Origin: Azoarcus sp. Aa7
Lineage (GTDB): Bacteria; Pseudomonadota; Gammaproteobacteria; Burkholderiales; Rhodocyclaceae
Length of the DNA: 64,000 bases
Assembly: GCF_014822185.1 (NCBI RefSeq)
Contig: NZ_QVLR01000009.1
Coordinates: 1-64,000, forward strand
Direction: 5' to 3'
Shown here: positions 42,435-64,000 of the stretch, piece by piece
Numbering within the stretch: the stretch's first letter is position 1
Layout of the letters: each line of letters starts with the position of its first letter
Translations under genes and position numbers: made by a program
Notes under the pieces: generated by a model
Database searches by the model: none
Seen by the model: only the letters and a program-made list of their open reading frames with translations
What the model was told of the DNA's origin: nothing

Positions 42435-43742
42435 TCAGATGCTGCGCAAGGCGATGCGGTGGATCTGGTTGTTGCCGTAGCCACCGGTGTTCCAGCCCGG
42501 TGCGACGATCGGCTGCGTGAGCCCACTGTCATCCGTGGCCCGCGCCCAGATTTCATAGTAGCCCTTCTTCGGCAGTTTCAGCGCGATGCGGAAACGGGTG
42601 GGTGCGAAGCGGTTGCGCGGCCGGCCGAGCTTCGCCGGAAGCCAGCTCTGGCCGAAATCGTAGGACACTTCGACGCTGCGGACGCCGCTTTCGGCGGTCC
42701 ATGCCTGGCCCCGTACCTCGATCTCCGTGCCCAGCGGGTGCTGGCTGCCCGACTGTGGAAAGGTGATCAGCGACTTGACCGGCATCTTTTCCAGGATGCA
42801 ATAGTCGTCCGACTGCTCGCCCGGAGCGATCGGATTGCAGGCGACACGGTAGTCGTGACCGCCCATCTTGGTGCCGTCATGCACCTTGTCGCGCACCGCG
42901 ATGCGCTTCAGCCACTTGCCGGAGACGGAGCCCGGCACACCGCCGACCACCAGACGCAGCGGGAAGCCGTGCACCTGACGAAGTGGTTCGCCATTCATCG
43001 CCCAAGCCAGCAGGGTCTCGTCCTCCATCGCCTTGGCGATCGGGCAACCACGCGAGATCACGGGACGCTTGCTGTCGCCCGACAGGTGCCGGTCGTCGCC
43101 CTCGTAACCGATATAGACGGCCTTATCGGTGACGCCTACCTCGCGCAGCACGTCGGCGAGGCGCACGCCGGTCCACTCTGGAAAGCCGACGCCCCCGTAG
43201 GTCCATTGATTGCCCTTGGCCGGTGGTTGGAAGCCGGCCCGGCCATTTCCGCCACATTCGAGTCCGATCTGCAGCGTCACCGCCTTGAAGCGCGACTTGA
43301 GTTCCTTCAGCGTGAATTCGCGCGGCGCCGTGACCGCCTCGCCGTCGATGCGCAGCACCCAGCTGTCGGGGTCGGCGGCCGGCGCGGGGACGAGGCCGTT
43401 GTTGCGCACGAACAACTTGTCGACCGGCGTGACGTCGTCGTCGAGCAGATGCGCCGGGGTCTCGGCGACGAAGGGTCGGTCGCCCAGAACGATGAGGTCG
43501 GGGCGCTTGCCGAAGGACTCCAGCGAATCCTTGCCCGGCGCATCGCCTTCTGCCAATGCGACCGGAATGAGGCCGTCCGGCAGGAAGCGGCCAAACGGCA
43601 AGTGCGCACCGATCGCGGCCGACACCGCCAGCAGCGTTCCCTTGCGGATGAAACCGCGCCGCCCAGGCAAGGCCGGCGTGCCTGCGCCGACCGATTCCGG
43701 GTGGCTTGCAGGCAGGGCAAGGGGCTGATCGTCTGTCTTCAT
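42435..43742 (-). CDS. sorA: Sulfite dehydrogenase molybdenum subunit (SorA/SoxC-related)
   Basis: A 435-residue sulfite oxidase-family protein. A Tat signal (RRGFIRKGTLLAVSAA) directs export; the Mo-ligating Cys is in QIGLECGGNGR; GNQWTYGGVGFPEWTGVRL and GFPLRLVVGGVPG are substrate/MPT-site blocks; the C-terminal Mo-co dimerisation domain follows (WTAESGVRSVEVSYDFG). Sequence also resembles SoxC, but the partner is a small mono-haem cytochrome, not SoxD, and the context is sulfite from Xsc. AGGAGAAAAC precedes the ATG. Confidence 0.88.
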   Translation of the reverse strand: MKTDDQPLALPASHPESVGAGTPALPGRRGFIRKGTLLAVSAAIGAHLPFGRFLPDGLIPVALAEGDAPGKDSLESFGKRPDLIVLGDRPFVAETPAHLLDDDVTPVDKLFVRNNGLVPAPAADPDSWVLRIDGEAVTAPREFTLKELKSRFKAVTLQIGLECGGNGRAGFQPPAKGNQWTYGGVGFPEWTGVRLADVLREVGVTDKAVYIGYEGDDRHLSGDSKRPVISRGCPIAKAMEDETLLAWAMNGEPLRQVHGFPLRLVVGGVPGSVSGKWLKRIAVRDKVHDGTKMGGHDYRVACNPIAPGEQSDDYCILEKMPVKSLITFPQSGSQHPLGTEIEVRGQAWTAESGVRSVEVSYDFGQSWLPAKLGRPRNRFAPTRFRIALKLPKKGYYEIWARATDDSGLTQPIVAPGWNTGGYGNNQIHRIALRSI

Positions 43743-43799
43743 GTTTTCTCCTGTTGGGCGTGCCGAATTCGCACGCAACGACGCCGGCTCGCGCAATTC

Positions 43800-47956: not shown

Positions 47957-49393
47957 TTACAAGACTTCATCCTTCATGTGGTACCAGCGGTACAACCACC
48001 ACTGGCCGAAGCGGCGGAAGGGCGCGAACATTTCCGCTTCGACCATCTCGCGCACGTTCGGGAACGGCAGCTTCGAGCGGAAGATCGGCAGCTCCGGCGT
48101 ACGGATACCGGCGATGTTTTCGGCAAGGCGACGACCGGCCTGAGCCGAATACATCACGCCGTTCCCACCGTAGCCGAGCGCGTAATAGATCGTCTGCTTC
48201 GGGTCCGGCTGGTAGATGCGCGGCATCATGTCGTGGCTGACATCCACCCAGCCCCACCACGAGTAGTCGATCTGGATGCCTTCGAGCGCCGGGAACTTGC
48301 GGTGCAGGTCGCGGATCAGGAACTGCTTGTACTTGTCCTCGGGCGCATCACGGCCGGTGATCGCGCTGCGGCTGCCGATCTGCACACGACCGTCGGGCAT
48401 CAGGCGGTAGTAGTGGCGCAGGATGCGGGTGTCGGTGATGACCTGGGTCGTGCGGAAATTGCACGCTTCGATCTCGGCCTGGGTCAGGGGGCGCGTGACG
48501 ATCGAGTTCGACAGGATCGGCAGCAGGCGATTCTTGACTTCGCGATGCAGGCCGTTCGAGGTGTAGCCACCGGTGGCGATGCCGACCGCACGGGCGCGCA
48601 CGATGCCGCCGGGCGTCTTCAGGTAATGCACGCCGTTCTTCGTCTCCCAGCCCATCACGGGGCTCGCCGGATGCACTTTCACGCCCAGCGCGCGCGCCTT
48701 CTTCAGGTAGCCGAAGGCGAGCTTGCCGGCGTGGATGCCGATGCCTTCGGGCTCGTGCATCGCGCCTGCGGCTTCCTTGTCGTCGACGTATTCGCGCTTC
48801 ACGGTGTCGGCGTCGAGGATGCGCGCGTCGTACTTGAAGACCTCGCGCAGGATCTTCGCTTCCCTCTCCAGCACCGGCATGACTTTCGGGCGATGCGCGA
48901 TGTAGAGGTGGCCGCCGGGCTGCGGCTCGCAGTCGATGTCCTTGATGAGGTCCTTGAAGGTCTGCATCGCATCGCAGACTTCCTCGTGCAGGCGCAGCGC
49001 GGTGTCGAGGCCGTAGCGCTCGATCCACTGCGAGCGCTTGAGCCGCCCGGAGGCGCACTGGGCCTGGCCGCCGTTGCGCGTGCTGCAGCCCCAGGCCGTG
49101 CGGTTCGCTTCGAGCACGGTCGCCTTGATGCCGTGCTTTTCGGCGAGCGAAATCGCCGCGGTCAGGCCGGTGAAGCCGGAGCCGATGATCGCGACATCGA
49201 CGTCGATGTCGTGGGTGATCGGGCCGTCGTCGGCGGGCGGCGCGCCGGCAGTGCCGATCCAGTAGGTCGGCGCGTAGTCGCGCCCCTGCCCCGGCGTGGT
49301 CGATACCAGCGGATCGTAGGCCGGATCGTAGGGCTGCGACGGCGCGGTGGCGCGCTCGCTGGTTACGATCCGCTTTGCTGCAATGGCTTCCAT
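47957..49393 (-). CDS. tauY: Taurine dehydrogenase large subunit, FAD-dependent
   Basis: A 478-residue DAO-family oxidoreductase. The FAD dinucleotide motif is DVAIIGSGFTGLTAAISLAE (G71, G73, G76), followed by VLEANRTAWGCSTRNGGQAQ, and the C-terminal FAD contact YYALGYGGNGVMYSAQAGRR. TauY with TauX oxidatively deaminates taurine to sulfoacetaldehyde and ammonium, passing electrons to cytochrome c (known from Paracoccus). The pairing with tauX, xsc and TRAP genes identifies it among generic DAO proteins. Confidence 0.88.
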   Translation of the reverse strand: MEAIAAKRIVTSERATAPSQPYDPAYDPLVSTTPGQGRDYAPTYWIGTAGAPPADDGPITHDIDVDVAIIGSGFTGLTAAISLAEKHGIKATVLEANRTAWGCSTRNGGQAQCASGRLKRSQWIERYGLDTALRLHEEVCDAMQTFKDLIKDIDCEPQPGGHLYIAHRPKVMPVLEREAKILREVFKYDARILDADTVKREYVDDKEAAGAMHEPEGIGIHAGKLAFGYLKKARALGVKVHPASPVMGWETKNGVHYLKTPGGIVRARAVGIATGGYTSNGLHREVKNRLLPILSNSIVTRPLTQAEIEACNFRTTQVITDTRILRHYYRLMPDGRVQIGSRSAITGRDAPEDKYKQFLIRDLHRKFPALEGIQIDYSWWGWVDVSHDMMPRIYQPDPKQTIYYALGYGGNGVMYSAQAGRRLAENIAGIRTPELPIFRSKLPFPNVREMVEAEMFAPFRRFGQWWLYRWYHMKDEVL

Positions 49394-49436: not shown

Positions 49437-49856
49437 TCAGTTGGCAACAGCGACGACCGGCGGGCGGTCCTTGCGGTAGGCGTTCTTGACCGCGATCTTG
49501 CCGTCGCGGAAGGTGAAGACATCGACCATGCGCGCCTCGATGCGCGTGCCGTCGGCCTTGGTGCCGCTGAAGGTCGATTCCGATACGCCGCGGTCGCCGC
49601 AGACGAAGTGGTCGCCGTCGAGCCAGGCGGCGTCGGGGAAGGTCTGCCACGCGAGCTGGAAGCCGGCGCGTACCGCTTCGCGGCCTTCGAAGCTCTTGCC
49701 GAGGAGGTCGGGGCCGGCGACCGCATGGAATACGCAGTCCTCGGCCATGAAGCTCATCAGGGCCTCGATGTCGTGACGGTTCCAGGCGTCGGCGAAAGCC
49801 TTCAGCGTCTCGACGGTGGCTTCGCTGCGGATCGGGGTGGCGGTGAGGCTGCTCAT
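49437..49856 (-). CDS. tauX: Taurine dehydrogenase small subunit (SnoaL/NTF2-like)
   Basis: A 139-residue SnoaL-like protein: FADAWNRHDIEALMSFMAEDCVFHAV, KSFEGREAVRAGFQLAWQTF, and EARMVDVFTFRDGKIAVKNAYRK. TauX is the small partner required by TauY; it has no cofactor motif of its own. First gene of an eight-gene operon to sorB, 37 bp downstream of the three-half-site operator. Confidence 0.85.
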   Translation of the reverse strand: MSSLTATPIRSEATVETLKAFADAWNRHDIEALMSFMAEDCVFHAVAGPDLLGKSFEGREAVRAGFQLAWQTFPDAAWLDGDHFVCGDRGVSESTFSGTKADGTRIEARMVDVFTFRDGKIAVKNAYRKDRPPVVAVAN

Positions 49857-49920: not shown

Positions 49921-49973
49921 TTGATTTACATTAGGCCGGTGGTTGACGCTTGTCAATCATAAATTTCGTTTTT

Positions 49974-50001
49974 CGGTACGTTATTTAATCTTTTTTGAAA
50001 T
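49974..50001. promoter_or_regulatory. Second, degenerate operator copy upstream of tauX
   Basis: CGGTAC (49974-49979) and TGAAAT (49996-50001) keep the spacing of the outer half-sites, but the middle element (TTAATC) is poor. It lies 81 bp from the strong copy, suggesting cooperative binding or looping. Confidence 0.4.
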
Positions 50002-50052: not shown

Positions 50053-50874
50053 TCAATCGATCCGTCCCGCCATCGGCGACGACGGCGAGGCGGCAAAGCG
50101 GCGCGGCATGCGTCCGGCGAGGAAGGCCTCGCGCCCGGCCTGCACCGCCAGGCGCATAGCCCGCGCCATGCGCACCGGCTCGCGCGCATGGGCGATCGCG
50201 GTGTTCATCAGCACGCCGTCACAACCCAGCTCCATCGCGATCGCCGCATCCGACGCGGTGCCGACGCCGGCATCGACGATCACGGGCACCCTCGCCTGCT
50301 CGATGATGAGCGACAGGTTCCACGGGTTCAGGATGCCCATACCCGAGCCGATCAGACTCGCCAGGGGCATCACCGCGACGCAGCCGATGTCCTCCAGGAT
50401 GCGCGCCTGGATGGGGTCGTCGCTGCAATACACCATCACGTCGAAGCCGTCCTTCACCAGCGCCTCGGCCGCTTTCAGCGTTTCGGGCATGTTCGGGAAC
50501 AGGGTCTTCTCGTCGCCCAGCACTTCGAGCTTGCACAGCTTGTGGCCGTCGAGCAGTTCGCGCGCGAGCTGCAAGGTGTAGACCGCGTCCTTCGCGTTGT
50601 AGCAGCCGCCGGTGTTCGGCAGGATCGTGAACCGGTCCGGCGGTAAGGCGTCGAGCAGGCTCGGTTCGTTGGCGTGCTGGCCGATGTTCACGCGCCGGAT
50701 CGTGACCGTGACGATCCCGGTGCCGCTCGCATCCACCGCGGCACGCGTTTCGTCGAAATCGCGATACTTGCCGGTGCCCACCAGCAGGCGCGACGCATAG
50801 GTCTTGCCGGCGATCGTGAGCCCCGCCTCGGGCGCGGCGTGCCGGCTTTCATCCGGGGTGTCGTTCAGCTTCAT
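50053..50874 (-). CDS. thiG: Thiazole synthase
   Basis: A 273-residue ThiG TIM barrel. [24 protein letters not shown] (first 20 residues conserved), the Schiff-base Lys in [15 protein letters not shown], and [30 protein letters not shown] are diagnostic. It makes the thiazole phosphate of thiamine from DXP, ThiS thiocarboxylate and dehydroglycine. Here it ends the xsc operon, an unusual place that fits extra ThDP demand by Xsc. Confidence 0.94.
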
Positions 50875-50901: not shown

Positions 50902-51111
50902 TTAGCCGCCGCCGATCGCGACGACGAGCTCGACGCGATCGTCCGGCTTCAGGATGTGGCCCGGCCAGCGCGGCGACGGGATCACCTCGCGGTTGATGGC
51001 GACCGCGATGCGCTTGCCCAGCAGGTCCAGGCTCGCGATGAGGTCGTGCAGCGTGCGGCCCGCACGCAGCACATGCGCGGCCCCGTTCAGTTCTATGGTT
51101 ACGCTTACCAC
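50902..51111 (-). CDS. thiS: Sulfur carrier protein ThiS
   Basis: A 69-residue ubiquitin-like protein ending in IGGG, so its penultimate/terminal Gly-Gly can be thiocarboxylated (one Gly more than the usual GG end). Core: VTIELNGAAHVLRAGRTLHD, KRIAVAINREVIPS, GHILKPDDRVELVVAI. It lies 27 bp before thiG and 13 bp after the yeiH-like gene. Confidence 0.9.
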   Translation of the reverse strand: MVSVTIELNGAAHVLRAGRTLHDLIASLDLLGKRIAVAINREVIPSPRWPGHILKPDDRVELVVAIGGG

Positions 51112-52368: not shown

Positions 52369-54180
52369 TCAGACGTAGTCCTTGTACTTGTCTAGATGGC
52401 GCACCGGCTTCGAGAGCGCATCGCGGCGGAACGGGTCGCCCAGTTCGCGCGTGCACATGATCTCGATGATGCAGGTCTTGCCGTGATTCATCTGCAAGTC
52501 GATGGCCTTCTTCAGCGCCGGGCCGACGTCCTCAAGCCGATCCACGGTGATGCCCTCGGCGCCCATCGCCCGCGCGATCTCGGCGAAGCTCTGGTTGTCG
52601 AGCTCGCCCGCGACGAAGCGGCGGTTGTAGAAGTCCACCTGGTTCTTCTTCTCCGCACCCCACTGGCGGTTGTGGAACACCACCGCCGTGACCGGGATGT
52701 TGTGCCGCACGCAGGTCATCGTCTCCATCAGGCTCATGCCCCAGGCGCCGTCGCCGGCATAGGACACCGCCGGGCGATGCGGTGCGGCGACCTTGGCGCC
52801 GATGATCGTCGGGAAGGCGTAGCCGCAGTTGCCGAAGCTCATCGCGGCGAAGAAGCTGCGCGGCTTCTCGAAGCGCAGGTAGCTGTTGGCGACCGAGTTG
52901 ATGTTGCCGATGTCGGTCGACACCATCACGTCTTCCGGCATCGCCTTCTCGAGTTCGCGCAGCACCTGGCGTGGATGCAGGAATTCGCCGCCGGAGAAGG
53001 GCTTTTCCTTCGCGTTCTCTTCGATCATGTCGAGGCTGAAGGGGTCGCGCTCGTGCGTCCATTCGTCGAGCTCGCGTTCCCACGCGGTCTTCTCGGCCTG
53101 CACCGTGGCAAAGCGCTGCTCGCGGGTGGCGTCGCACTCCAGCGTGCGGCCGGTCAGGCGCCACACCAGCGCCTTGGCCGCAGCCTTGGCGTCGCCGCAG
53201 ATGCCGACCGAGATCTTCTTCACCAGACCCAGCATCTTGTTGTCGGCGTCGATCTGGATGATCTTGGCGTTCTTCGGCCAGTAGTCCATGCCGTGCTGCG
53301 GCAGCGTGCCGAAGGGCCCGAGGCGCGAGCCGAGCGCGATCACCACGTCGGCTTGCGCCATCAGCTTCATCGCCGCCTTCGACCCCTGGTAGCCGAGCGG
53401 GCCGCACCACAGCGGGTGGCTCGCGGGGAAGGAGTCGTTGTGCAGGTAGCTATTCACGACCGGGGCGCCGAGGCGCTCGGCGAGCGCCTTGCACTCCTCG
53501 ATCGCGTCGGCCATCACGACGCCGCCGCCGGAGATGATCACGGGGAACTTGGCGGTCGCGAGCAACTCGGCCGCTTCGTTGAGGCTCGCCTCACCCCCCG
53601 CGCCGCGGTCGAGGCGGCTGGGCTTGGGGATCTCGCAGGTGATCTCGCCGTAGAAGTAGTCGCGCGGGATGTTGAGCTGGGTGGGCCCCATCTCGCTCAT
53701 CGCGCGGTCGAAGCAGCGGCCGGTGTATTCGGCCATGCGCGCCGGATGGGTGACGTGGCCCTGGTACTTGGTGAATTCCTGGAACATCGGCAGCTGGTTG
53801 CATTCCTGGAAACCGCCCAGGCCCATGCCCATGGTGCCGGTCTCCGGGGTCACGATCACCACCGGGCTGTGCGCCCAGTAGGCTGCGCCGATGGCGGTGA
53901 CGCAGTTGCTGATGCCGGGGCCGTTCTGGCCGATCACCACGCCGTGGCGGCCCGACACGCGCGAAAAGCCGTCGGCCATGTGGCCCGCGCCCTGCTCATG
54001 CACCACCGGGATCAGGCGGATGCCGGCCGGCGCGAAGATGTCCATCGCGTCCATGAAGGCCGAGCCCATGATCCCGAACATGTCGGTCACGCCGTTGGCG
54101 ACCATCGTCTCCACGAAGGCTTCCGACGGGGTCATCTTGTGCGGGCCGCTGACGACGGTGCGGTGGTCTTGTTCGCTCAT
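52369..54180 (-). CDS. xsc: Sulfoacetaldehyde acetyltransferase
   Basis: A 603-residue ThDP enzyme that converts sulfoacetaldehyde and phosphate to acetyl phosphate and sulfite. Catalytic Glu62 lies in VVHEQGAGHMADG; the ThDP/Mg motif is SYAGDGAWGMSL... VVFHNRQWGAEKKNQ, where the RQWGAEK stretch is an Xsc hallmark. Xsc-typical NIPRDYFYGEI and CNQLPMFQEFTKYQGHV are present. AAGGAGACAGCAGCA precedes the ATG at 54180. It heads an operon with the yeiH-like, thiS and thiG genes, with the shared operator 48 bp upstream. Confidence 0.96.
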   Translation of the reverse strand: MSEQDHRTVVSGPHKMTPSEAFVETMVANGVTDMFGIMGSAFMDAMDIFAPAGIRLIPVVHEQGAGHMADGFSRVSGRHGVVIGQNGPGISNCVTAIGAAYWAHSPVVIVTPETGTMGMGLGGFQECNQLPMFQEFTKYQGHVTHPARMAEYTGRCFDRAMSEMGPTQLNIPRDYFYGEITCEIPKPSRLDRGAGGEASLNEAAELLATAKFPVIISGGGVVMADAIEECKALAERLGAPVVNSYLHNDSFPASHPLWCGPLGYQGSKAAMKLMAQADVVIALGSRLGPFGTLPQHGMDYWPKNAKIIQIDADNKMLGLVKKISVGICGDAKAAAKALVWRLTGRTLECDATREQRFATVQAEKTAWERELDEWTHERDPFSLDMIEENAKEKPFSGGEFLHPRQVLRELEKAMPEDVMVSTDIGNINSVANSYLRFEKPRSFFAAMSFGNCGYAFPTIIGAKVAAPHRPAVSYAGDGAWGMSLMETMTCVRHNIPVTAVVFHNRQWGAEKKNQVDFYNRRFVAGELDNQSFAEIARAMGAEGITVDRLEDVGPALKKAIDLQMNHGKTCIIEIMCTRELGDPFRRDALSKPVRHLDKYKDYV

Positions 54181-54227
54181 TGCTGCTGTCTCCTTGTCGA
54201 GGAATCTTGAGGTCAAGATATCGTTTT

Positions 54228-54255
54228 CGGTACTTTTTGTTCCGATTTTCGATAC
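54228..54255. promoter_or_regulatory. Three-half-site operator, xsc promoter
   Basis: CGGTAC (54228-54233), five bases, GTTCCG (54239-54244), five bases, CGATAC (54250-54255). Same architecture as the other copies. The rest of the 337-bp xsc/cobS divergent region is AT-rich; a weak second copy with TGAATC and TGAAAT but spacing one base short lies near 54311-54337. Confidence 0.75.
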
Positions 54256-54448
54256 TTGAGTTCAATGTACGTCGACCTTTTGGAGACGTCAACACCAATT
54301 TCGTTTTTTTGAATCATTTGTCTCTTATTTTGAAATTAATTCAATCGCAGCCAAATCGGCAAGGCGTAGACAGCCTTATGCACCGCTTCGCTGTATTGAT
54401 CCGAATGTAGGATCAAGCCCCGACGGCGCCAAGCTATATTTCATTTTT

Positions 54449-54476
54449 CGGAACTTCTTGTATCTTTTATCGGAAC
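54449..54476. promoter_or_regulatory. Three-half-site operator, cobS-like promoter
   Basis: CGGAAC (54449-54454), TTCTT, GTATCT (54460-54465), TTTAT, CGGAAC (54471-54476), 42 bp before the chosen GTG start. This copy ties the CobS/CobT/Lin0512 operon to the taurine regulon. Confidence 0.7.
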
Positions 54477-54517
54477 ATGTCTATCATGGGATCGCACAGA
54501 ACCCCAAGGAGACTGCC

Positions 54518-55498
54518 GTGACGGAACTCGCGCTCGATACACCCGACCAGCTGGTTTCGGTCCGTTCGCTGTTCGGAATCGATTCCGACCTGAAGGTGCC
54601 GGCCTTCGGCGAACGCGAGGACCATGTGCCCGAGATCGACGAGGCCTACCGCTTCAACCCCGACGTGACGCTCGCGATCCTCGCCGGCTTCACGCGCGAC
54701 CGCCGCGTGATGGTCCAGGGCCTGCACGGCACAGGGAAGTCGACACACATCGAGCAGGTCGCCGCGCGCCTGAACTGGCCCTGCGTGCGCGTGAACCTCG
54801 ACGGCCACATCAGCCGGCTGGACCTCGTGGGCAAGGACGCGATCGTCGTGCGCGACGGCCGGCAGGTCACCGAATTCCAGGAAGGCATCGTGCCGTGGGC
54901 GCTGCAGCGCCCCGTGGCGCTGATCTTCGACGAGTACGACGCCGGCCGGCCCGACGTGATGTTCGTGATCCAGCGCATCCTCGAGCGCGACGGAAAGTTC
55001 ACGCTGCTCGACCAGAACCGCGTGATCCGCCCGCACCCCTTCTTCCGCCTGTTCGCGACATCGAACACGGTGGGCCTCGGCAACCTCTCGGGCATGTACC
55101 ACGGCACGCAGGTGCTCAACCACGCCCAGATCGACCGCTGGAACATCGTCGCGACGCTGAACTACCTGCCGCGCGAGGAGGAAGTCGCCATCGTGCTCGC
55201 GCGCGTGCCGGCGAAGAACGATGAGAAAGGTCGAAAACTCGTCGCGTCGATGGTCGCGGTCGCCGACCTCACCCGCAAGGGCTTCGCCGCCGGCGACCTG
55301 TCGACGCTGATGTCGCCGCGCACGGTGATCACCTGGGCGGAGAACTGCGAGATATTCCGCAATCCGGCGCTGGCGTTTCGCTTGTCCTTCCTCAACAAGT
55401 GCGACGAGGTCGAACGGCCCATCGTTGCCGAGTACTACCAGCGCTGCTTCGGCGCGGAGCTCGACGAATCGTGGATGCGCGAGGCGGCAGCGCAGTAA
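54518..55498 (+). CDS. CobS-like MoxR/AAA+ ATPase
   Basis: A 326-residue AAA+ ATPase of the CobS type: [18 protein letters not shown]-terminus, Walker [11 protein letters not shown] (67-76), [17 protein letters not shown], Walker [14 protein letters not shown] (D138, E139), sensor-1 [11 protein letters not shown]. In aerobic cobalamin synthesis CobS and CobT form the AAA+ motor for CobN, but no cobN or other cob gene is here. The GTG at 54518 with AAGGAG upstream is chosen since an earlier ATG (54458) would lie inside the operator. Its TAA overlaps the next ATG (TAATG). Confidence 0.85.
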
Positions 55499-57222
55499 TG
55501 CAAACGCCGCAGCAGAAAGCGAAACGGCAGCAGCGGGTCGAGGAGCTGTGCGCGGCGACGCTGCGCGCGCTCACCGGCGAGGCGACGCTGCATTACCGCG
55601 GGCGTCGCCTGTATGCGGGCGAGCGCGCCGTGCCCGTGCATGCGCCGCACCTGCGCGTCGATCCCGGTGAAGACGGCTTCGCCGACTGCCGCGCCGCTGC
55701 CGACGGGACCGCGCTGCGCCTGCTGCACTCCGATGCCGCACTGCACCGCCGCCTGTGTCCCGCCGACGCGGTCGAGCGCCTCGTCTTCGAACTCCTCGAA
55801 CAGCTGCGCGTGGAGACGCTCGCACCCGCCGACATGCCCGGCATGGCGACAAACCTGCACCGGCGCTTCGAGAACTGGTCGCGCGCGTTTTACCGCTCGG
55901 GCCTCACCGAAGGCAGCGTCGGCATCCTGCTGTATACGGTGGCGCAGATGTGCTGGTCGCGCCTCACCGCGCGGCAGGTGCTGGAGGAAACCGAGGACTA
56001 CATCGAGGGCACGCGCGTCACGCTGGTCGGCGCGCTCGGCGGATCGCTCGCCGGCATCCGGCGCCATCGCGGCGACCAGCAGGCCTTCGCCCGCCATGCG
56101 CTGGAGATCGCGCGCATCGTGGGCGAGCGCGTGCGCGCCGAACGCGCCGCCACGGACGAGGAATCCGACCAGGACGAAGAGGACGCGAAAGCCGGTTTCG
56201 CGCTGCTGCTGGACTTCGACGAGGGCGACGACACAGGCGACGGTATCGCCGCCGCAACGACCGGCGCGAGCAAGGTCTTCGCGGACGCTGCCCTCGCCTA
56301 TCGTGTCTACACGACGCGCTTCGATACCGAGGTGGCCGCCGGCACGCTGGTGCGCCGCGCGCTGCTGCGCGAGTACCGCGAACGCCTCGACCGGCGCATT
56401 GCCGAGCAGGGCCTGAACCTGCCCCGTCTCGCGCGCCAGCTCGCGGCCGTGCTCACGCGGCCCGCGCGCGACGGCTGGCGCTTCGGCGAGGAGGAAGGCC
56501 ACATCGACGGCCGCCGCCTCGCCCAGGTCATCAGCACGCCCGCCGAACGCCGTGTGTTCCGCCAGGAGCGCCATGTGCCGCAGGCCGATTGCGCGGTGAG
56601 CTTGCTGATCGACTGTTCGGGCTCGATGAAGACCCATATCGAGCCCGTCGCGGTCATGCTCGACGTGCTGATCCGCGCGCTGGACATGATCGGCGTCGCC
56701 ACCGAGCTGCTGGGCTTCACGACCGGCACGTGGAACGGCGGCCGCGCCTGGCGCGACTGGATGAACCGCGGCCGCCCGCAGCACCCGGGGCGTCTCAACG
56801 AGATCTGCCACATGGTGTTCAAGGACGCAGAGCGCAACTGGCGGCGCGCGCGCGGCGACATCGCCGCGCTCCTCAAGGCCGATCTGTTCCGCGAAGGCAT
56901 CGACGGAGAGGGTGTCGACTGGGCGTGCAACCGCCTGCTCGCACGCAGCGAGGCGCGCCGCATCCTGATCGTGATCTCCGACGGTTGCCCGTCCGACAGC
57001 GCGACCGGGCTCGCCAACGACCCCTTCTATCTGGACAATCACCTCAAGGACGTCGTCGCGCGGCGCGAACGCGAGGGCGCGGTGGAGATCCTCGGGCTGG
57101 GCGTGGGGCTGGACTTGAGCCCCTTCTACCGCCGCAGCCTCGCGACCGACATGACGCGGGGACTGGAGAACGACCTGTTCCCGAATATCGTTCAGCTCAT
57201 CGGCGGACGCCACCGCCGATGA
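55498..57222 (+). CDS. CobT-like VWA-domain protein
   Basis: A 574-residue protein of the CobT type. N-terminal helical region (1-210), an acidic segment (219-249, rich in Asp/Glu), a linker, and a C-terminal von Willebrand A domain with an intact MIDAS: IDCSGSMKTH (371-380), TTGTWNGG, and VISDGCPSDSA. CobT binds the AAA+ hexamer of CobS and positions the target by the MIDAS metal. Translationally coupled to the CobS-like gene. Without CobN the pair may act on another partner, like CbbQ/CbbO Rubisco activases. Target unknown. Confidence 0.85.
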   Translation: MQTPQQKAKRQQRVEELCAATLRALTGEATLHYRGRRLYAGERAVPVHAPHLRVDPGEDGFADCRAAADGTALRLLHSDAALHRRLCPADAVERLVFELLEQLRVETLAPADMPGMATNLHRRFENWSRAFYRSGLTEGSVGILLYTVAQMCWSRLTARQVLEETEDYIEGTRVTLVGALGGSLAGIRRHRGDQQAFARHALEIARIVGERVRAERAATDEESDQDEEDAKAGFALLLDFDEGDDTGDGIAAATTGASKVFADAALAYRVYTTRFDTEVAAGTLVRRALLREYRERLDRRIAEQGLNLPRLARQLAAVLTRPARDGWRFGEEEGHIDGRRLAQVISTPAERRVFRQERHVPQADCAVSLLIDCSGSMKTHIEPVAVMLDVLIRALDMIGVATELLGFTTGTWNGGRAWRDWMNRGRPQHPGRLNEICHMVFKDAERNWRRARGDIAALLKADLFREGIDGEGVDWACNRLLARSEARRILIVISDGCPSDSATGLANDPFYLDNHLKDVVARREREGAVEILGLGVGLDLSPFYRRSLATDMTRGLENDLFPNIVQLIGGRHRR

Positions 57223-57257
57223 AGATCCGCAACATTCGAACAGGAGGCAATTGAAGC

Positions 57258-57611
57258 ATGGCCAAGACCCGGATGGTCGTGCAGTTCGGCATGGGGACTT
57301 CGATCCGCAGCCAGGACTACACGCAGGCCGCCGCGCGCGCGATTCGCGACGCGCTGTGGCACAACTCGTTGAACGTCGCGAGCGCGTTCGACTTCCCGCG
57401 CGAAGAGATGCTGATCGACGTCGAGATCGGCGTGCAGAAGCCCGAAGCCGTCGACACCTCGGCGCTCGTCGCAGTCTTCCCCTACGGCCAGCCGACCTTC
57501 AAGGTCGTGCCGGGCGGGCTCGACGTCCCCAAGGCCGACGGCAGCGGCGTCACCGTGATCGCGAACGCCGCGGTCGTCGTTTCCTTCGACCTGGAGCGCA
57601 CCCATGCCTGA
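57258..57611 (+). CDS. Lin0512-family protein, copy A
   Basis: A 117-residue protein of the Lin0512 family, function unknown. Signature elements: VQFGMGTSIRSQDYTQAAARA, RDALWHNSLN, MLIDVEIGVQKPEAVDTSAL, FPYGQPTFKVVPGGLDVP and VIANAAVVV. No signal peptide or metal-site cysteine. It begins 35 bp after the CobT-like gene with AGGAGGCAATTGAAGC upstream and overlaps copy B by 8 bp. Confidence 0.8.
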   Translation: MAKTRMVVQFGMGTSIRSQDYTQAAARAIRDALWHNSLNVASAFDFPREEMLIDVEIGVQKPEAVDTSALVAVFPYGQPTFKVVPGGLDVPKADGSGVTVIANAAVVVSFDLERTHA

Positions 57612-57984
57612 AAAGCGCCTGATTCTGGAAATGGGCACCGGCAACGACCTCTTCGGCGGCGACTACACCAAGGCCGCCTGTCGCGCAGTGCAGGACGCGC
57701 TGCACCATTCCGTGCTGTCGCTGTTCCGCTCTCTCGGCTACGACACGCAGAACATGCGCGTGCAGGTCACGATCGGCGTGCAGCAGCCGGACAAGGTCGA
57801 CGCCGCGGTCGTGCGCGCCGAACTACCGCGCGGCAAACCGGAAGTCAGGGTGGTCTTCGGCGGCCTCGACGTGCATGACCCAGTGCAGGACACGACTCAC
57901 GTCATCGCCACCGCCGCGATCGAAGCCTTCCTGCCCATCGAATCCGACAGCTGGCGGCTCGCCGCCCCCGCGCCGCACGGCTGA
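57604..57984 (+). CDS. Lin0512-family protein, copy B
   Basis: A 126-residue paralogue of the preceding protein. It aligns through LEMGTGNDLFGGDYTKAACRA, VQDALHHSVLS, MRVQVTIGVQQPDKVDAAVV, LPRGKPEVRVVFGGLDVHD and VIATAAIEAF, with a 15-residue C-terminal extension. Conserved DYT-x-AA-x-RA and IGVQ-P suggest a shared ligand or a heteromer. Last gene of the operator-linked operon. Confidence 0.8.
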   Translation: MPEKRLILEMGTGNDLFGGDYTKAACRAVQDALHHSVLSLFRSLGYDTQNMRVQVTIGVQQPDKVDAAVVRAELPRGKPEVRVVFGGLDVHDPVQDTTHVIATAAIEAFLPIESDSWRLAAPAPHG

Positions 57985-58561: not shown

Positions 58562-60961
58562 TCAGACGATGGCTGCCGCCCGGGCCGTAGGGATCAGTTT
58601 CTCGAACTCATCGACGCCGAGCGGGCGATGGAACAGGTAGCCCTGGCCCATCTCGCAGTGCCGCTCCTTCAGGAACGCAAGCTGCCGCTCCGTCTCGATG
58701 CCTTCGGCGAGCACTTCGATGCCGAGCGCGTGGGCCATCTCGACGATCGCCACGATGATCGAGCGCTTGGCCGCCTCGCTCGCAATGCCCTGCACGAAGC
58801 TCTGGTCGACCTTGAGCTCATGCACCGGCAGGCGGCTGAGGTAGGACAGCGACGAGTAGCCGGTACCGAAATCGTCGATGCTTACCGCGATGCCGTGCCG
58901 GGCGAGCCGCTCGAACATCCGCGCCGTCCCTTCGATGTCCTCGAGCAGCGTCCCTTCGGTCAACTCGAGGCAGATCGCGCCGGCCGGCACGGCCCGCTCG
59001 TCGAGCCGGCCGCACAGCTGTTCGACGAAGCCCGGCTCGCGCAGCTGCTGCGCGGCGACGTTGATCGAAATGCGCGGCGGCGCCAACCCGCGCATCCGCC
59101 ACAGCGCGATCTGCGTCAACACCTTGGCCATGACGATGTCGTTGATCGACACGATCAGGCCGGCCTCCTCCGCCGCCGGAATGAAGCGCGACGGAGGGAC
59201 GTCGCCCAGCTCGGGATCGTGCCAGCGCACCAGCGCCTCGGCGCCGACAAGGCGGCCTGCGTCGAGGCGGTATTGCGGCTGATAGACGACGCGGAAGCGG
59301 TCGCCCTCGATCGCGGCCCGCAAGCCCGTGCCAATGCTCATGCGGGCACGCACCAGGTCCTGCATTCCGGCGGCGAAGAAACGGAAGCGACTGCAGCCGG
59401 GCGCCTTTGCCTCGTGCAGGGCGGTGTCCGCATTCTTCAGCAGCGCCGAGGTGGTATCGCCGTCGGTCGGGGAGATGGCGATACCGATCGAAGCCGCTGC
59501 GAACACGTCGTGCCCCTCGATGCAGAACGACGCCCCCAGATAATCCAGCGTGCGCGCGACCAAGGCGCGCAACGCCTCCACGCTGCGTCCCTTGACGATC
59601 ACGGCGAACTCGTCGCCGCCGATCCGGGCGAGCGTGTGCGCGTCGGCCAGGCAGCGTCGCAGACGGTCGGCCACCTGTTCGAGCAGCAGATCGCCGAAAT
59701 CGTGGCCGAGGGTGTCGTTGATGTCTTTGAAGTTGTCGAGGTTGATCAGCAACACTGCGACGTCCGCCGGCGGACAGCGGTCCTGCGCGAGCGCGTCGGC
59801 GAGCCGCTGGGTGAGCAGCTTGCGGTTCGCAAGGCCGGTGAGCCCGTCGTGCGTCATCAGGAAGGCGAGCCGGCGCTGCAAATCGCCCACCGCGTCGCGG
59901 TCGCCGGTCCCGCTCACGGGGGGAGCCGCGTCTGCCTCCGGTACGACGATCGTCGCCGACGGCGAAAGCGCCCGGACCGCGGCATCGACTTCGTCGACGA
60001 CCGGCGCACGCATCGCCGGCTCGGGCAGCGACACGACGTAGCCCAGCAGGCGCCGCCCGCGGAACACCGGCTCGACCCGGTCGGCGAGCAGCCGCGCCGG
60101 CAGGAAGCGATCGGCCTCGACGTCCGCTGCCGCACGCCCGGCGACCGGGATACGGGTTTCGGCGGTCAGGACGACACCCTCCGCGGCAAGCAGCGGCGCC
60201 GCGCGCTCGTTGGCCTTCACGAGCCGACCGCGCGCATCGAAGAGCGCCACACCGCGCGCCGCGGAGAGCGCCGCGACACCCGCCTCGAGCAGCTGGAAAC
60301 GCTCCTCCAGCTCCATCTGCGCAAGCCGGTTCTCGATGCTGTTCGCCGTCGTGACCACGAGCGGCAGCGAATGCGTCGAGTAATCCCCGCTCATCCCCGA
60401 GATGTCGAGCGCGCCGACGACCGAGCCGTCGACCGGATCGCGGATCACCGAAGCGGAACAGGTCCAGCGCTGTATGGGTTCGCAGAAATGCTCCGCACCG
60501 TGAACCTGTATCGGCTGCGCCAGGGTGAGCGCGGTGCCGATCGCGTTCGTGCCGATGCCGGATTCGCTCCAGTTATTCCCGGGCGTCATGCCGAATTCGC
60601 CGATCGCCTGGCGCAGCTGCGGGTCGCCCTCGACGTCGAGGACGACGCCCTGGGGGTCGGTGAGGACCATCACGGTGCCGGTCTGCGCGAGCTGGTCGCG
60701 CGACTGCATCAGGAAAGGCGCGCTCGCCGCGATCAGCCGCTCGTTCGCAGCGCGCAGCGTGTCGAGATCATCGTGTTCCACGCGCGCCGGCGCCTCGCCG
60801 CGCGCCGGATCGACCCGCCCCAGCAGGCAGCGCCGCCACGACTCGCCGATGACGTCCCGCAGCACCCCGTTGCCGGCATGATGCGATCCGACCAGCAAAT
60901 CATGCCAGGCGGTCTTCACCTGTGGATTGTTCTCCGGCCGGGATAACCCAGTCCCTCGCAC
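58562..60961 (-). CDS. GAF-GGDEF-EAL cyclic-di-GMP protein with AcoR-type sensor
   Basis: A 799-residue cytoplasmic protein. Its N-terminus matches the sensory part of AcoR-like sigma-54 activators: ESWRRCL, then a GAF domain with NNWSESGIGTNAIGTAL and HFCEPIQRWTCSASVI. A PAS-like segment (about 230-300) follows, then GGDEF with intact RIGGDEFAV and an EAL domain with GAEALVRW, ISINVAAQQL and DDFGTGYSSLSYL. It can in principle make and break c-di-GMP in response to a small molecule. It lies inside the taurine island but carries no copy of the operator. Confidence 0.9.
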   Translation of the reverse strand: MRGTGLSRPENNPQVKTAWHDLLVGSHHAGNGVLRDVIGESWRRCLLGRVDPARGEAPARVEHDDLDTLRAANERLIAASAPFLMQSRDQLAQTGTVMVLTDPQGVVLDVEGDPQLRQAIGEFGMTPGNNWSESGIGTNAIGTALTLAQPIQVHGAEHFCEPIQRWTCSASVIRDPVDGSVVGALDISGMSGDYSTHSLPLVVTTANSIENRLAQMELEERFQLLEAGVAALSAARGVALFDARGRLVKANERAAPLLAAEGVVLTAETRIPVAGRAAADVEADRFLPARLLADRVEPVFRGRRLLGYVVSLPEPAMRAPVVDEVDAAVRALSPSATIVVPEADAAPPVSGTGDRDAVGDLQRRLAFLMTHDGLTGLANRKLLTQRLADALAQDRCPPADVAVLLINLDNFKDINDTLGHDFGDLLLEQVADRLRRCLADAHTLARIGGDEFAVIVKGRSVEALRALVARTLDYLGASFCIEGHDVFAAASIGIAISPTDGDTTSALLKNADTALHEAKAPGCSRFRFFAAGMQDLVRARMSIGTGLRAAIEGDRFRVVYQPQYRLDAGRLVGAEALVRWHDPELGDVPPSRFIPAAEEAGLIVSINDIVMAKVLTQIALWRMRGLAPPRISINVAAQQLREPGFVEQLCGRLDERAVPAGAICLELTEGTLLEDIEGTARMFERLARHGIAVSIDDFGTGYSSLSYLSRLPVHELKVDQSFVQGIASEAAKRSIIVAIVEMAHALGIEVLAEGIETERQLAFLKERHCEMGQGYLFHRPLGVDEFEKLIPTARAAAIV

Positions 60962-61102: not shown

Positions 61103-61867
61103 CTACGAGATCGGCACGATCGCCGGCAGGGCCGACATCACCAGATAGGCGCCGATCGCCATCAACAGCGCGAAGACGAAGCGGCGCATCGTGCGGGCGG
61201 CGAGCGGCGGCGGGTAGCGGCGCCCGACGACGGTCGCGAGCGCCACGACGGGCACCGCCACCGCAGAGAGCGTCCAGATCTCCGCATCGAGCCGCCCCTG
61301 CACGCCGAGGTAGAACGAACGTGCGGCCGAGGTGATCGTGAACAGCAGCAACAGGATGTTGCGCACGGCGACCGGGTCCATCGGCTGGCGATAGAACTGG
61401 AAGATCAGCGGCGGGCCGGCAACGCCGAAGAGTCCGCCGCTCAGTCCGGAAAAGAAGCCGCTCGCCGCGAAGCTGATGTCCGACGAACGCTCGTCGAGCT
61501 GCACCGGACGCAGCGCGAACCCCACGCTGCCCTGCACGATCACGATGCCGAGGATCAGCTGCAGCACCCCGGCCGCCGCACTGCTGAGGTATTCCAGCAG
61601 CAGCACGCCGCCGACGATGGCCGGCAGGCTGCCGAGCGTCGCGGCCCGCGCCGCGCGCCAGTCGATGCCGTGCATGCGCCCGGGCAGCGCGACGGCGCTG
61701 TTGGCGAGCGTCACGAGGCTCACGACCGCGGCGATGGTCGCCACCGGCAGGAGGTGCATGCCGCTGGTCGCGCCCATCACGATCATGCCCAGGCCGAAGC
61801 CCGTCACCGTCTGAAAATAGGTTGCCGCCGCCAGAACGACGATCAGCAGCAGAACCTCGGCGTTCAT
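61103..61867 (-). CDS. TauE/SafE-family (TSUP) sulfite exporter-like protein
   Basis: A 254-residue membrane protein with eight TM helices in two repeats: FQTVTGFGLGMIVMGATSG and SGFFSGLSGGLFGVAGPPLI are the family motifs. TSUP members next to taurine genes (TauE) are proposed sulfite or sulfoacetate exporters. It starts 1 bp after the pta stop, so it is cotranscribed with pta. Confidence 0.85.
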   Translation of the reverse strand: MNAEVLLLIVVLAAATYFQTVTGFGLGMIVMGATSGMHLLPVATIAAVVSLVTLANSAVALPGRMHGIDWRAARAATLGSLPAIVGGVLLLEYLSSAAAGVLQLILGIVIVQGSVGFALRPVQLDERSSDISFAASGFFSGLSGGLFGVAGPPLIFQFYRQPMDPVAVRNILLLLFTITSAARSFYLGVQGRLDAEIWTLSAVAVPVVALATVVGRRYPPPLAARTMRRFVFALLMAIGAYLVMSALPAIVPIS

Positions 61868-61868
61868 G

Positions 61869-62903
61869 TCACACCGACACCGCGGCCGCGGCCACGCGGG
61901 CCTCGGCGGCGGCCTGCGCCTGCACCACCGTCACCGCGATCACGTAGAAAATGTCGTCGGCGCTGCAGCCGCGCGACAGGTCGTTCGCCGGCTTGTCCAG
62001 CCCCTGCAGCAGCGGCCCGATCGCGACCGCGCCGCCGACGCGCTCGGCCAGCTTGTAGCCGATGTTGCCCGCCTCGAGGTTCGGGAAGACCAGCACGTTC
62101 GCCCGCCCCTTCACCTGGGACTCCGGCAGCTTGCGGTTCGCGATCTCGGCGACGATCGCCGCGTCGAGTTGCACGTCGCCGTCGATCGCGAGTCCGGGGC
62201 GCATCTCGCGCACGCGCTGTGCGGCGGTCACCACCTTATCCACGGCCGCATGCTTCGCGCTGCCGCTCGTCGAGAACGACAGCATCGCGACACGCGGCTC
62301 CTCCATCAGCAGGCTGCGCGCGCTGTCCGCGGCGGCCATCGCGATCTCGGACAGCTCCTCGGCATCCGGCTCGACCACCAGCCCGCAGTCGGAAAAGATC
62401 AGCCCCCCCTTGAGGCTGTGGAAGGGTTCGCACAGCATCATCAGGAAGAAGCTCGACACGAGCTTGCACGACGGGTTCAGTCCGATGATCTGGATCGCAT
62501 TGCGCACCACGTCGGCGGTCGTGCGCACCGCGCCCGACACCGATCCGTCGGCGTGGCCCAGGCGCACCATCAGGTTTGCGAAGCACAACGGGTCGAGCAC
62601 GTCGTGCTGTGCCTGTTCCAGCGTCATGCCCTTGTGCGCGCGCAGGCGCAGCAGCACCCGCACGAAACCCTCGGTGAGATGCGAGCGCGCCGGATCGACC
62701 AGCTCGATATCCGCCAGATCCAGCCCCTCACGGAAGGCACACGCCTCTATCGCGGCGCAGCTGCCGACGAGGACGATCTTCGCCGTGCCTTCGCGCGTCG
62801 CGCGCACCGCGGCCTGCAGCACGCGCGGATCGTCGCCCTCGCTGAGGACGATCCGCTTCGGTGCCGCACGCGCCGTTTCGATGATCCGGTTGATCGCTTT
62901 CAT
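61869..62903 (-). CDS. pta: Phosphate acetyltransferase
   Basis: A 344-residue PTA_PTB enzyme without the N-terminal DRTGG domain. RIVLSEGDDPRVLQAA, ANLMVRLGHADGSVSGAVRTTADV, VSSFFLMM, VVEPDAEELSEIA, GDVQLDAA and ANVLVFPNLEAGNIGYKLAER are diagnostic. It converts acetyl phosphate from Xsc to acetyl-CoA. The ATG at 62903 begins family sequence (MKAINRIIETARAAPKRIVL); a longer frame runs through the leader without family resemblance. The operator lies 224 bp upstream, leaving a long structured 5' leader. Confidence 0.95.
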   Translation of the reverse strand: MKAINRIIETARAAPKRIVLSEGDDPRVLQAAVRATREGTAKIVLVGSCAAIEACAFREGLDLADIELVDPARSHLTEGFVRVLLRLRAHKGMTLEQAQHDVLDPLCFANLMVRLGHADGSVSGAVRTTADVVRNAIQIIGLNPSCKLVSSFFLMMLCEPFHSLKGGLIFSDCGLVVEPDAEELSEIAMAAADSARSLLMEEPRVAMLSFSTSGSAKHAAVDKVVTAAQRVREMRPGLAIDGDVQLDAAIVAEIANRKLPESQVKGRANVLVFPNLEAGNIGYKLAERVGGAVAIGPLLQGLDKPANDLSRGCSADDIFYVIAVTVVQAQAAAEARVAAAAVSV

Positions 62904-62994: not shown

Positions 62995-63126
62995 GGAGGG
63001 AAATACCAAGGATGGAGCACCGCCGGAGGTGCGACGCAGGTCACGCGCCCGCCGACGTCGTCGCCCGCATGCCGGTCAGACACGGGGGCGGCAACACGCA
63101 TCAACAGCTTCAATTACAAACAATTT

Positions 63127-63154
63127 CGATACGATTAGTTCCGTTATTCGAAAC
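63127..63154. promoter_or_regulatory. Three-half-site operator, pta promoter
   Basis: CGATAC (63127-63132), GATTA, GTTCCG (63138-63143), TTATT, CGAAAC (63149-63154). It lies between pta and iclR, 55 bp from the copy that precedes iclR. Confidence 0.75.
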
Positions 63155-63255: not shown

Positions 63256-64000
63256 ATGAAGATCACCCGCAGCTCCGGATCGGAGCCCGCCCGCATCGAC
63301 GGCGACACCCCGACCATGCGGCTTTTCAGCCTGCTGGAAGTCATCGCAGCCAAGGACCAGACCTTCTCGCTGCAGGGCCTCGTCGAGGAAACGGGATTGC
63401 CCAAACCCACGCTGCACCGCATGCTGCAGCAGCTCGAATCGGAGGGGCTGCTGCATCGCGAAGGCGATGGTCGGCACTACAGCACCGGCGTGCGCCTGCG
63501 CCGCCTCGCGGAGAACCTGCTGCTCAACAGCACCACCCACGGCGCGCGCCATGTCGTGCTGCGCCAGCTGGTCGAAGAGGTCGGCGAGAGCTGCAACATC
63601 ACGGCCTTCTCGGGCAGCGAAGTGATGTACCTCGACCGCCTCGAATCGACCGCGCCGCTGCGCTTCTACCTGCATCCGGGTTCGCGCGTGCCGGCCCACT
63701 GCTCCGCCACCGGCAAGCTGTTCCTCGCCCAGATGACGCCCGCCCAGCGCCGGCGCCTGCTCGCCTCCGCGCCGCTGGAAAAGTTCACGCCGAACACGAT
63801 CACCGATCCGGGCGCCCTCGAACGCGAGATCGAGGAGGTCAAGCGCAACGGCTACGCGCTCGACAACGAGGAATTCCTGCCCGGCCTGCTGTGCATCGGC
63901 GTCCTCGTTCCGACGCAGCGCAAGCAGTCCAACATGGGCCTCGCGATCCAGGCGCCGATCATGCGGCTCACGCGCGAAAAGGCCTTGCAGTTCCTGCCTG
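63256..64000 (+). CDS. IclR-family regulator, 3' end cut by window
   Basis: At least 248 residues; the reading frame is open at the window end. N-terminal winged HTH: TMRLFSLLEVIAAKDQTFSL, GLVEETGLPKPTLHRMLQQLESEGLL. The effector-binding domain follows from about 85 (HVVLRQLVEEVGESCNITAF, SRVPAHCSATGKLFLAQ, RNGYALDNEEFLPGLLCIGV). The usual length is about 260-270, so only the last residues are missing. Flanking pta and carrying its own operator copy, it is the best candidate regulator of the taurine regulon, in place of the MocR-type TauR known elsewhere. TCGAGGTCACC precedes the ATG. Confidence 0.9.
   Translation, partial: MKITRSSGSEPARIDGDTPTMRLFSLLEVIAAKDQTFSLQGLVEETGLPKPTLHRMLQQLESEGLLHREGDGRHYSTGVRLRRLAENLLLNSTTHGARHVVLRQLVEEVGESCNITAFSGSEVMYLDRLESTAPLRFYLHPGSRVPAHCSATGKLFLAQMTPAQRRRLLASAPLEKFTPNTITDPGALEREIEEVKRNGYALDNEEFLPGLLCIGVLVPTQRKQSNMGLAIQAPIMRLTREKALQFLP

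Follow-up and report, generated by a model that had tools for sequence, protein, structure and literature searches.

A CobS/CobT-type AAA+/VWA gene pair tied to sulfoacetaldehyde acetyltransferase in taurine gene clusters

Why does a bacterium in whose genome a search finds no CobN carry genes for CobS- and CobT-like proteins among its genes for taurine use? The question is raised by four genes at 54518-57984 of a 64,000-nucleotide stretch of DNA from Azoarcus sp. Aa7 (contig NZ_QVLR01000009.1, positions 1 to 64,000; hereafter the window). An original prediction, made from the sequence alone, took these genes for an AAA+/VWA motor of the sulfonate pathway with no part in B12 synthesis. Our analysis supports this view, since the CobS/CobT-like pair (CobST) is linked to xsc, the gene for sulfoacetaldehyde acetyltransferase (Xsc), in many beta- and gammaproteobacterial genera. 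The association is stronger than could have been known from the window, and the motor probably sustains Xsc function rather than B12 synthesis.

Reading frames and family searches bore out the predicted set of four tightly packed genes, all on the + strand. The cobS-like gene (54518-55498, GTG start) encodes a MoxR-type AAA+ ATPase of 326 amino acids with Walker motifs, which matched CobS_N (53 bits) and AAA_5 (43.9 bits) and narrowly missed the CobS equivalog cut-off (TIGR01650, 550.6 against 558.55 bits). The ATG of the cobT-like gene (55498-57222) begins on the last base of the cobS stop codon, a one-base overlap, and its product is a VWA protein of 574 amino acids with an intact metal-ion-dependent adhesion site (MIDAS). 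This protein matched CobT_C (156.1 bits) and CobT (86.2 bits) and scored 300.4 bits against the cut-off of 759.05 for the CobT equivalog TIGR01651. The last two genes, which overlap by 8 bases, encode proteins of the Lin0512 family, A (57258-57611, 117 amino acids) and B (57604-57984, 126 amino acids); they scored 117.5 and 115.8 bits with PF09585 and 59.9 and 60.6 bits with TIGR02058, above its cut-off of 56.85. Among aligned frames covering 80% or more of the full length, the MIDAS residues D372, S374, S376, T408, T409, and D495 were invariant in 86 of 86 CobT proteins, while the residues of Walker A (G-x-HGTGKS) and Walker B (FDEYD) were kept in 83 of 83 CobS proteins. The adjoining genes thus encode an AAA+/VWA pair with intact Walker and MIDAS motifs, as in enzyme-remodelling pairs of the CbbQO and NorQD type.

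With six aligned CobT sequences as query, we scanned genome contigs and took the best 80 of 389 relatives, which together with five plasmid loci gave 85 loci from Rhodocyclales, Burkholderiales, Halomonadaceae, Aeromonadales, Chromobacteriaceae, a Chromatiales metagenome-assembled genome (MAG), and others. At 43 of them, hereafter fully flanked, the sequence extends 8.5 kb or more to either side of CobT. Xsc, counted at 60% identity or more, lay within about 10 kb of CobT in 42 of these 43 loci, so the predicted tie to sulfonate genes recurs in other genomes. The same loci held TauY in 35 cases, TauX in 34, Pta in 33, TauE in 23, the Lin0512 pair in 13, ThiG in 10, a G3E GTPase in 9, ThiO in 6, and SorA in none. 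Over all 85 loci, many of them cut short, Xsc was seen in 64. In the window, xsc (52369-54180, − strand) is divergent from cobS, and its product passed the Xsc cut-off (TIGR03457, 1081.8 against 676.4 bits). The gene before cobS varies among the loci, being divergent xsc or co-directional iclR, tauX, thiO, or a permease or transporter gene. The Chromatiales MAG has the order xsc-ackA-cobS-cobT-thiS-thiG on one strand, with ThiS read by eye and ThiG cut by the contig end. In four Halomonas loci (L028, L031, L034, and L039), xsc is present twice, flanking the cobST-lin genes on both sides.

In a CobT tree of 49 rows, a 100/100 branch separates the 30 xsc-type rows from the other 19, which are canonical or orphan. 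Because the 85 loci are interrelated and were picked by CobT similarity, evenly drawn samples were used as well. Among 369 genomes of the class, Xsc exceeded the cut-off in 21 and xsc-type CobT occurred in 5, all of which belong to the 7 genomes with type-I Xsc, defined as at least 79% identical to the window Xsc (Fisher p 3.8e-10). One further genome (G060), with a truncated Xsc under the cut-off (541 bits) and no CobT match, was left out of the counts. In a sample of 398 genomes of the phylum, where CobT was sought in Xsc genomes only, Xsc was found in 27; the seven from the class of the window all carry xsc-type CobT. The 20 from other classes, presumably Alphaproteobacteria, all have CobN and only canonical CobT, and are uninformative on whether canonical CobST serves Xsc. 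Over both samples, 10 of the 12 type-I Xsc genomes have xsc-type CobT. It lies within about 5 kb of Xsc in the source genome (G000) and in G224, G143, G547, G533, and G602, no more than 30 kb away on the same contig in G605 and G677, and on another contig in G265 and G047. In the Xsc tree, a single change suffices to account for the CobST-linked rows, with moderate support for the branch (86/77) and three rows left ungrouped. Together, the 42 of 43 loci and the co-occurrence in the class sample amount to a stable genomic tie of CobST to one enzyme.

The clients put forward for the motor were Xsc, TauXY, and SorA, and our data favor the first. TauY is absent from eight of the 43 fully flanked loci, all of which retain Xsc and CobST. 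In L044, L045, L047, L049, and L052, Xsc and CobST stand, without TauY, together with putative sulfoacetate genes, named by similarity only (a tripartite or TRAP transporter, an aldehyde dehydrogenase, and mostly an acyl ligase). As loci without TauXY keep CobST, the client with the best support is Xsc, whose contact with the motor and reactivation by it we infer. SorA was seen in none of the 85 loci at 50% identity, a weak test given that the SorA of the window lies about 11 kb from cobS. The window protein in question (42435-43796) is a sulfite dehydrogenase related to SorA, SorT, and SoxC that scored under all three equivalog cut-offs.

The clusters also contain recurrent thiazole genes, a feature new here that the original prediction did not report. 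In the window, thiG (50053-50874, − strand; PF05690, 359.2 bits), a second genome copy of the thiazole synthase gene, and thiS (50902-51111, − strand; TIGR01683, 62.8 bits, cut-off 37.45), which encodes the sulfur carrier for thiazole synthesis, sit between tauX and xsc. Thiazole genes, either ThiG or ThiO, occur in 16 of the 43 fully flanked loci. CobST-linked ThiG was found in 12 of the 85 loci, belonging to Aromatoleum, Azoarcus, Thauera, Janthinobacterium, and the Chromatiales MAG, not counting a ThiG fragment in L053. Of the 13 genomes checked, 11 have the linked ThiG in addition to another copy; in G759 it was the only copy seen, and none passed in G754. The ThiG tree is poorly resolved; because the Chromatiales ThiG shares only 45% identity with that of the window and the Thauera copy falls among copies located elsewhere, the thiazole genes were probably recruited to CobST-xsc clusters more than once. 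ThiO lies between tauX and cobS in six Halomonas-type loci (L034, L035, L041, L063, L070, and L075) and exceeds the cut-off in all six (296-305 bits). A second ThiO over the cut-off exists in two of these genomes, the linked ThiO being the sole one in the other four, and in three Halomonas genomes that lack the linked gene, a ThiO occurs elsewhere. This recurrence of thiazole genes points to the thiamine diphosphate (ThDP) cofactor of Xsc.

Xsc is a ThDP enzyme that releases sulfite. For this reason, we tentatively propose that CobS and CobT form a dedicated AAA+/VWA remodelling motor with Xsc as its client, most likely an Xsc activase. A CobS hexamer would carry CobT as an adaptor, and the CobT MIDAS would grip an acidic residue on Xsc. 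Xsc may lose active sites in use, with sulfite being made next to its ThDP. Hydrolysis of ATP by the CobS ring would then open the active site of Xsc, such that blocked or damaged ThDP could leave and fresh ThDP-Mg enter. Clustered ThiS-ThiG, as in the window, or ThiO, as in Halomonas, would provide more of the thiazole half of ThDP, and Lin0512 A/B would be an optional partner that perhaps senses or delivers a small molecule. A more elaborate version, which we hold more loosely and regard as possible, is that of a ThDP-enzyme activase derived from the cobaltochelatase lineage. It would eject sulfite-damaged or dead-end ThDP, draw on a thiazole-supply branch, and use Lin0512 A/B as sensor or cofactor shuttle; CobST pairs without CobN, such as the AurF-linked pairs of two small gammaproteobacterial genomes, would then make up a wide class of motors that reactivate or metallate specific enzymes.

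Several observations weigh against an Xsc activase. The two type-I Xsc genomes without a CobT match (G042 and G183) are draft genomes of one genus; no CobT match was found either in the type-Ib Xsc genomes G055, G108, G225, and G311 or in the type-II Xsc genomes G340, G244, and G361, and the remaining type-II Xsc genomes carry canonical or orphan CobT only. Thus, Xsc as such needs no motor of this kind. The near-constant presence of Xsc also has its exception in L057, which has CobST and TauXY and no Xsc within 10 kb. An N-terminal tail of Xsc, present in the CobST-linked loci inspected, is a lead to a possible handle for the motor; its association with xsc-type CobT was not significant in the sampled genomes (7/1/3/5, p 0.12); the tail is missing in G143, where Xsc stands beside CobST, and G311 may have it without CobT. 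Three Xsc columns (34, 56, and 525) are specific to the CobST-linked rows; as none is acidic, no ligand of the MIDAS can be named, and among sequences of the PDB no chain named Xsc matched at E 1e-40 or better. The thiazole genes occur in a minority of loci, and the linked ThiO of Halomonas may be the ordinary thiO of these bacteria that moved, given that it is the sole copy in four genomes and is found unlinked in others. Furthermore, sulfite attacks thiamine by a cleavage that leaves the thiazole half intact; the thiazole genes are therefore unexplained by this reaction and fit a raised demand for ThDP better.

The explanation that survives best beside the activase is that CobS and CobT act in the assembly or loading of Xsc, by inserting ThDP-Mg or helping the oligomer to fold, rather than in its repair. 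We consider this somewhat doubtful. The same linkage to Xsc speaks for it, and the thiazole genes fit a supply of cofactor. AAA+/VWA pairs of the NorQD type reportedly insert a metal cofactor (PMC13036017, PMC9976466). A G3E (COG0523) GTPase, of the metallochaperone type, is present in 9 of the 85 loci; on this count, the metal delivery suggested by the original prediction is neither supported nor ruled against. It is found at the tauXY end of the Paraburkholderia-type clusters L061, L062, L064-L067, L071, and L073, and beside CobT in L003. Against loading stand the related Xsc enzymes that do without a CobST pair, and we know of no ThDP enzyme that needs a motor for loading.

It is unlikely that the client is instead another enzyme of the pathway, such as TauXY, Pta/AckA, or a sulfite-handling enzyme, with Xsc merely marking the pathway. 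In favor of such a client, TauY (35 of 43) and Pta (33 of 43) are frequent in the fully flanked loci, tauX directly precedes cobS in four loci, G047 has the order pta-cobS-cobT with Xsc on another contig, and L057 keeps TauXY with no Xsc in view. However, 8 of the 43 loci lack TauY and 10 lack Pta (with Pta counted at 60% identity, so that divergent copies were missed), as compared to a single one without Xsc, and the count of zero for SorA tells against this candidate too. Improbable, in turn, is that the motor merely hitchhikes in the regulon, its role being general or unrelated and of use when the cells grow on sulfonates. CobST is missing from some Xsc genomes, and CobT proteins of another clade occur in G017, G046, G120, G176, and G283, which have neither CobN nor an Xsc over the cut-off, as hitchhiking would allow. 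It would not account for the pairing of one Xsc clade with one CobT clade, adjacent to each other through many rearrangements.

Finally, we considered cobalamin synthesis. CobN was searched for in the source genome and 50 further genomes. The search with PF02514 found no match in the source genome, while it matched 5 of 14 control genomes. The source genome has one CobT match (among the best 3 of 12 candidates scored), and no cobN elsewhere that this sole copy could serve. Ten sampled genomes carry xsc-type CobT, five in the class sample (G000, G224, G265, G143, and G047) and five in the phylum sample (G547, G605, G677, G533, and G602); seven of them, including the source genome, lack CobN. 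In G547 and G605, CobN over the cut-off adjoins a ChlI- or ChlD-like gene (TIGR02442, 383 and 97 bits, both below cut-off); for G605 this covers two of its three CobN matches, the remaining one being on C103. In G143, a CobN-like protein reached 494.9 bits against the CobN cut-off of 822. A B12 role is thus not supported, given the absence of CobN from the source genome and the ChlI/ChlD-like neighbors of CobN in G547 and G605, and for the source genome it is largely refuted. It is very improbable that a cobaltochelatase CobST still serving cobalamin synthesis stands in the taurine regulon by chance, as the near miss of CobS at its cut-off and the CobN-family proteins of G143, G547, and G605, genomes with no other CobT match seen, are set against seven of ten genomes without CobN, the neighbors and score just given, a CobT far under its cut-off, and a separate CobT clade.

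The original prediction had included the Lin0512 pair in the system, as adaptors or ligand-binding subunits. We found it in 38 of the 85 loci and 13 of the 43 fully flanked ones, so the tie of CobST to the sulfonate pathway and Xsc held while the pair as a core part did not; it is an accessory, optional partner of CobST. Loci that have either protein always have A and B together (38 of 38), directly after CobT in 29 loci and after a cupin gene in 8, where this gene lies between CobT and Lin0512 A (e.g., Cupin_3 at L042:11726-12091). In the class sample, Lin0512 exceeded the cut-off in 3 of 369 genomes: the source genome, whose two matches are the window pair, G143 with one copy, and G258 with a pair. 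Those of the source genome and G143 stand beside xsc-type CobT; the A+B pair of G258 (L156:10377-11107) has no CobST beside it, and an Azospirillum member stands alone. The structure model of protein B (predicted local distance difference test score 87.9) had 3c8l as its only clear fold match (Z 15.1). It resembles the C-terminal domain of FtsZ; this domain and RidA-type domains scored Z of about 5.6-7.2, and no function was indicated. As a guess, Lin0512 A/B might be a heteromer that binds a small molecule.

The predicted common operator of cobS with tauX, xsc, and pta/iclR was also recovered. The pattern TTTTCGRWAC-N12-TTTTCGRWAC, with half-sites 22 bases apart and up to 3 mismatches, gave four sites in the window, all on the + strand: operator-like direct repeats before cobS (54445-54476), before xsc (54224-54255), before tauX (49970-50001), and between pta and iclR (63123-63154). 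None occurred in any of 20 shuffles, a contrast that overstates significance because the pattern was derived from these very sites. Independent support comes from sites at up to 2 mismatches in 6 of 20 other loci (five Aromatoleum, one Azoarcus), which in L009, L010, and L011 lie directly before cobS. At that threshold, no site was found in the other 14, including every locus outside the Rhodocyclales group; the operator is therefore lineage-local or altered elsewhere. No such operator was found within the 3.7-kb stretch around the other full thiG of the source genome (G000:C27).

The remaining taurine genes flank this core. The SnoaL/NTF2-like protein at 49437-49856 (− strand) is probably TauX, an identity we take from its pairing with the FAD oxidoreductase at 47957-49393 (− strand); the latter is presumably TauY, its best match being TIGR03329, below the cut-off. 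On the other side lie genes for a member of the TauE/SafE sulfite exporter family (61103-61867, − strand; PF01925, 70.5 bits) and the phosphate acetyltransferase Pta (61869-62903, − strand; TIGR00651, 360.6 bits, cut-off 311.2). An IclR-type regulator (63256-63999, + strand), whose reading frame runs beyond the end of the window, is a candidate for the operator-binding protein; its family assignment follows the original prediction and the annotated IclR genes of L003, to which it is similar. A gene for a GAF-GGDEF-EAL protein (58562-60961) stands between the Lin0512 pair and tauE-pta.

Xsc is the meeting point of the taurine, isethionate, and sulfoacetate pathways and a step in carbon and sulfur cycling. 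To our knowledge, no activase of a ThDP enzyme has been described before; if our proposal is correct, such an enzyme would join the short list of those with an AAA+ activase, and many genes named for cobalamin synthesis would do something else. The uncharacterized Lin0512 family gains a testable setting, and the question arises of whether Xsc poisons its own thiamine with sulfite. In the literature searched, with most subscription journals outside it, we found no joint mention of xsc and cobT, only a genome annotation paper for sulfoacetaldehyde acetyltransferase with CobS, no mention of Lin0512, its accessions, or 3C8L, and nothing relevant on thiamine sulfitolysis. At L162:8815-12763 and L163:7864-11802, from two small genomes of the window's class (G176 and G283) that lack CobN, a CobS-CobT pair is followed by a co-directional gene for a homologue of the diiron N-oxygenase AurF (PF11583, about 44 bits), possibly another CobST motor with an enzyme client.

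Among known systems, the cobaltochelatase CobNST is nearest in name, as CobS and CobT are the closest named families and solved CobT chains match; the pair described here differs from it in having no CobN, in missing both equivalog cut-offs, in its separate CobT clade, and in its xsc neighbor. Both small proteins belong to the Lin0512 family (PF09585), with B sharing the fold of 3c8l from Nostoc, and differ from it in standing as an A+B tandem downstream of CobT. NorQD, which serves iron insertion into nitric oxide reductase, is likewise reported to be an AAA+/VWA pair with one enzyme client and a cofactor-related role (PMC13036017, PMC9976466), while its sequence families and client are different. 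In the CbbQO activase, the MIDAS of the VWA protein is reported to bind an acidic Rubisco residue, with ATP hydrolysis serving release of the inhibitor, and the cbbQO-associated Rubiscos to have a C-terminal motif that other Rubiscos lack (PMC4660213). The likeness to our locus lies in an AAA+/VWA gene pair next to the gene of a dedicated enzyme, an intact MIDAS, and a VWA protein as client adaptor (PMC4660213), and the N-terminal tail of Xsc may parallel the Rubisco motif. In contrast to CbbQO, the pair described here belongs to the CobS/CobT family, its CobS-like protein scoring 14.7 bits with CbbQ_C against the CbbQ/NorQ cut-off of 20.6, and its client would be a ThDP enzyme.

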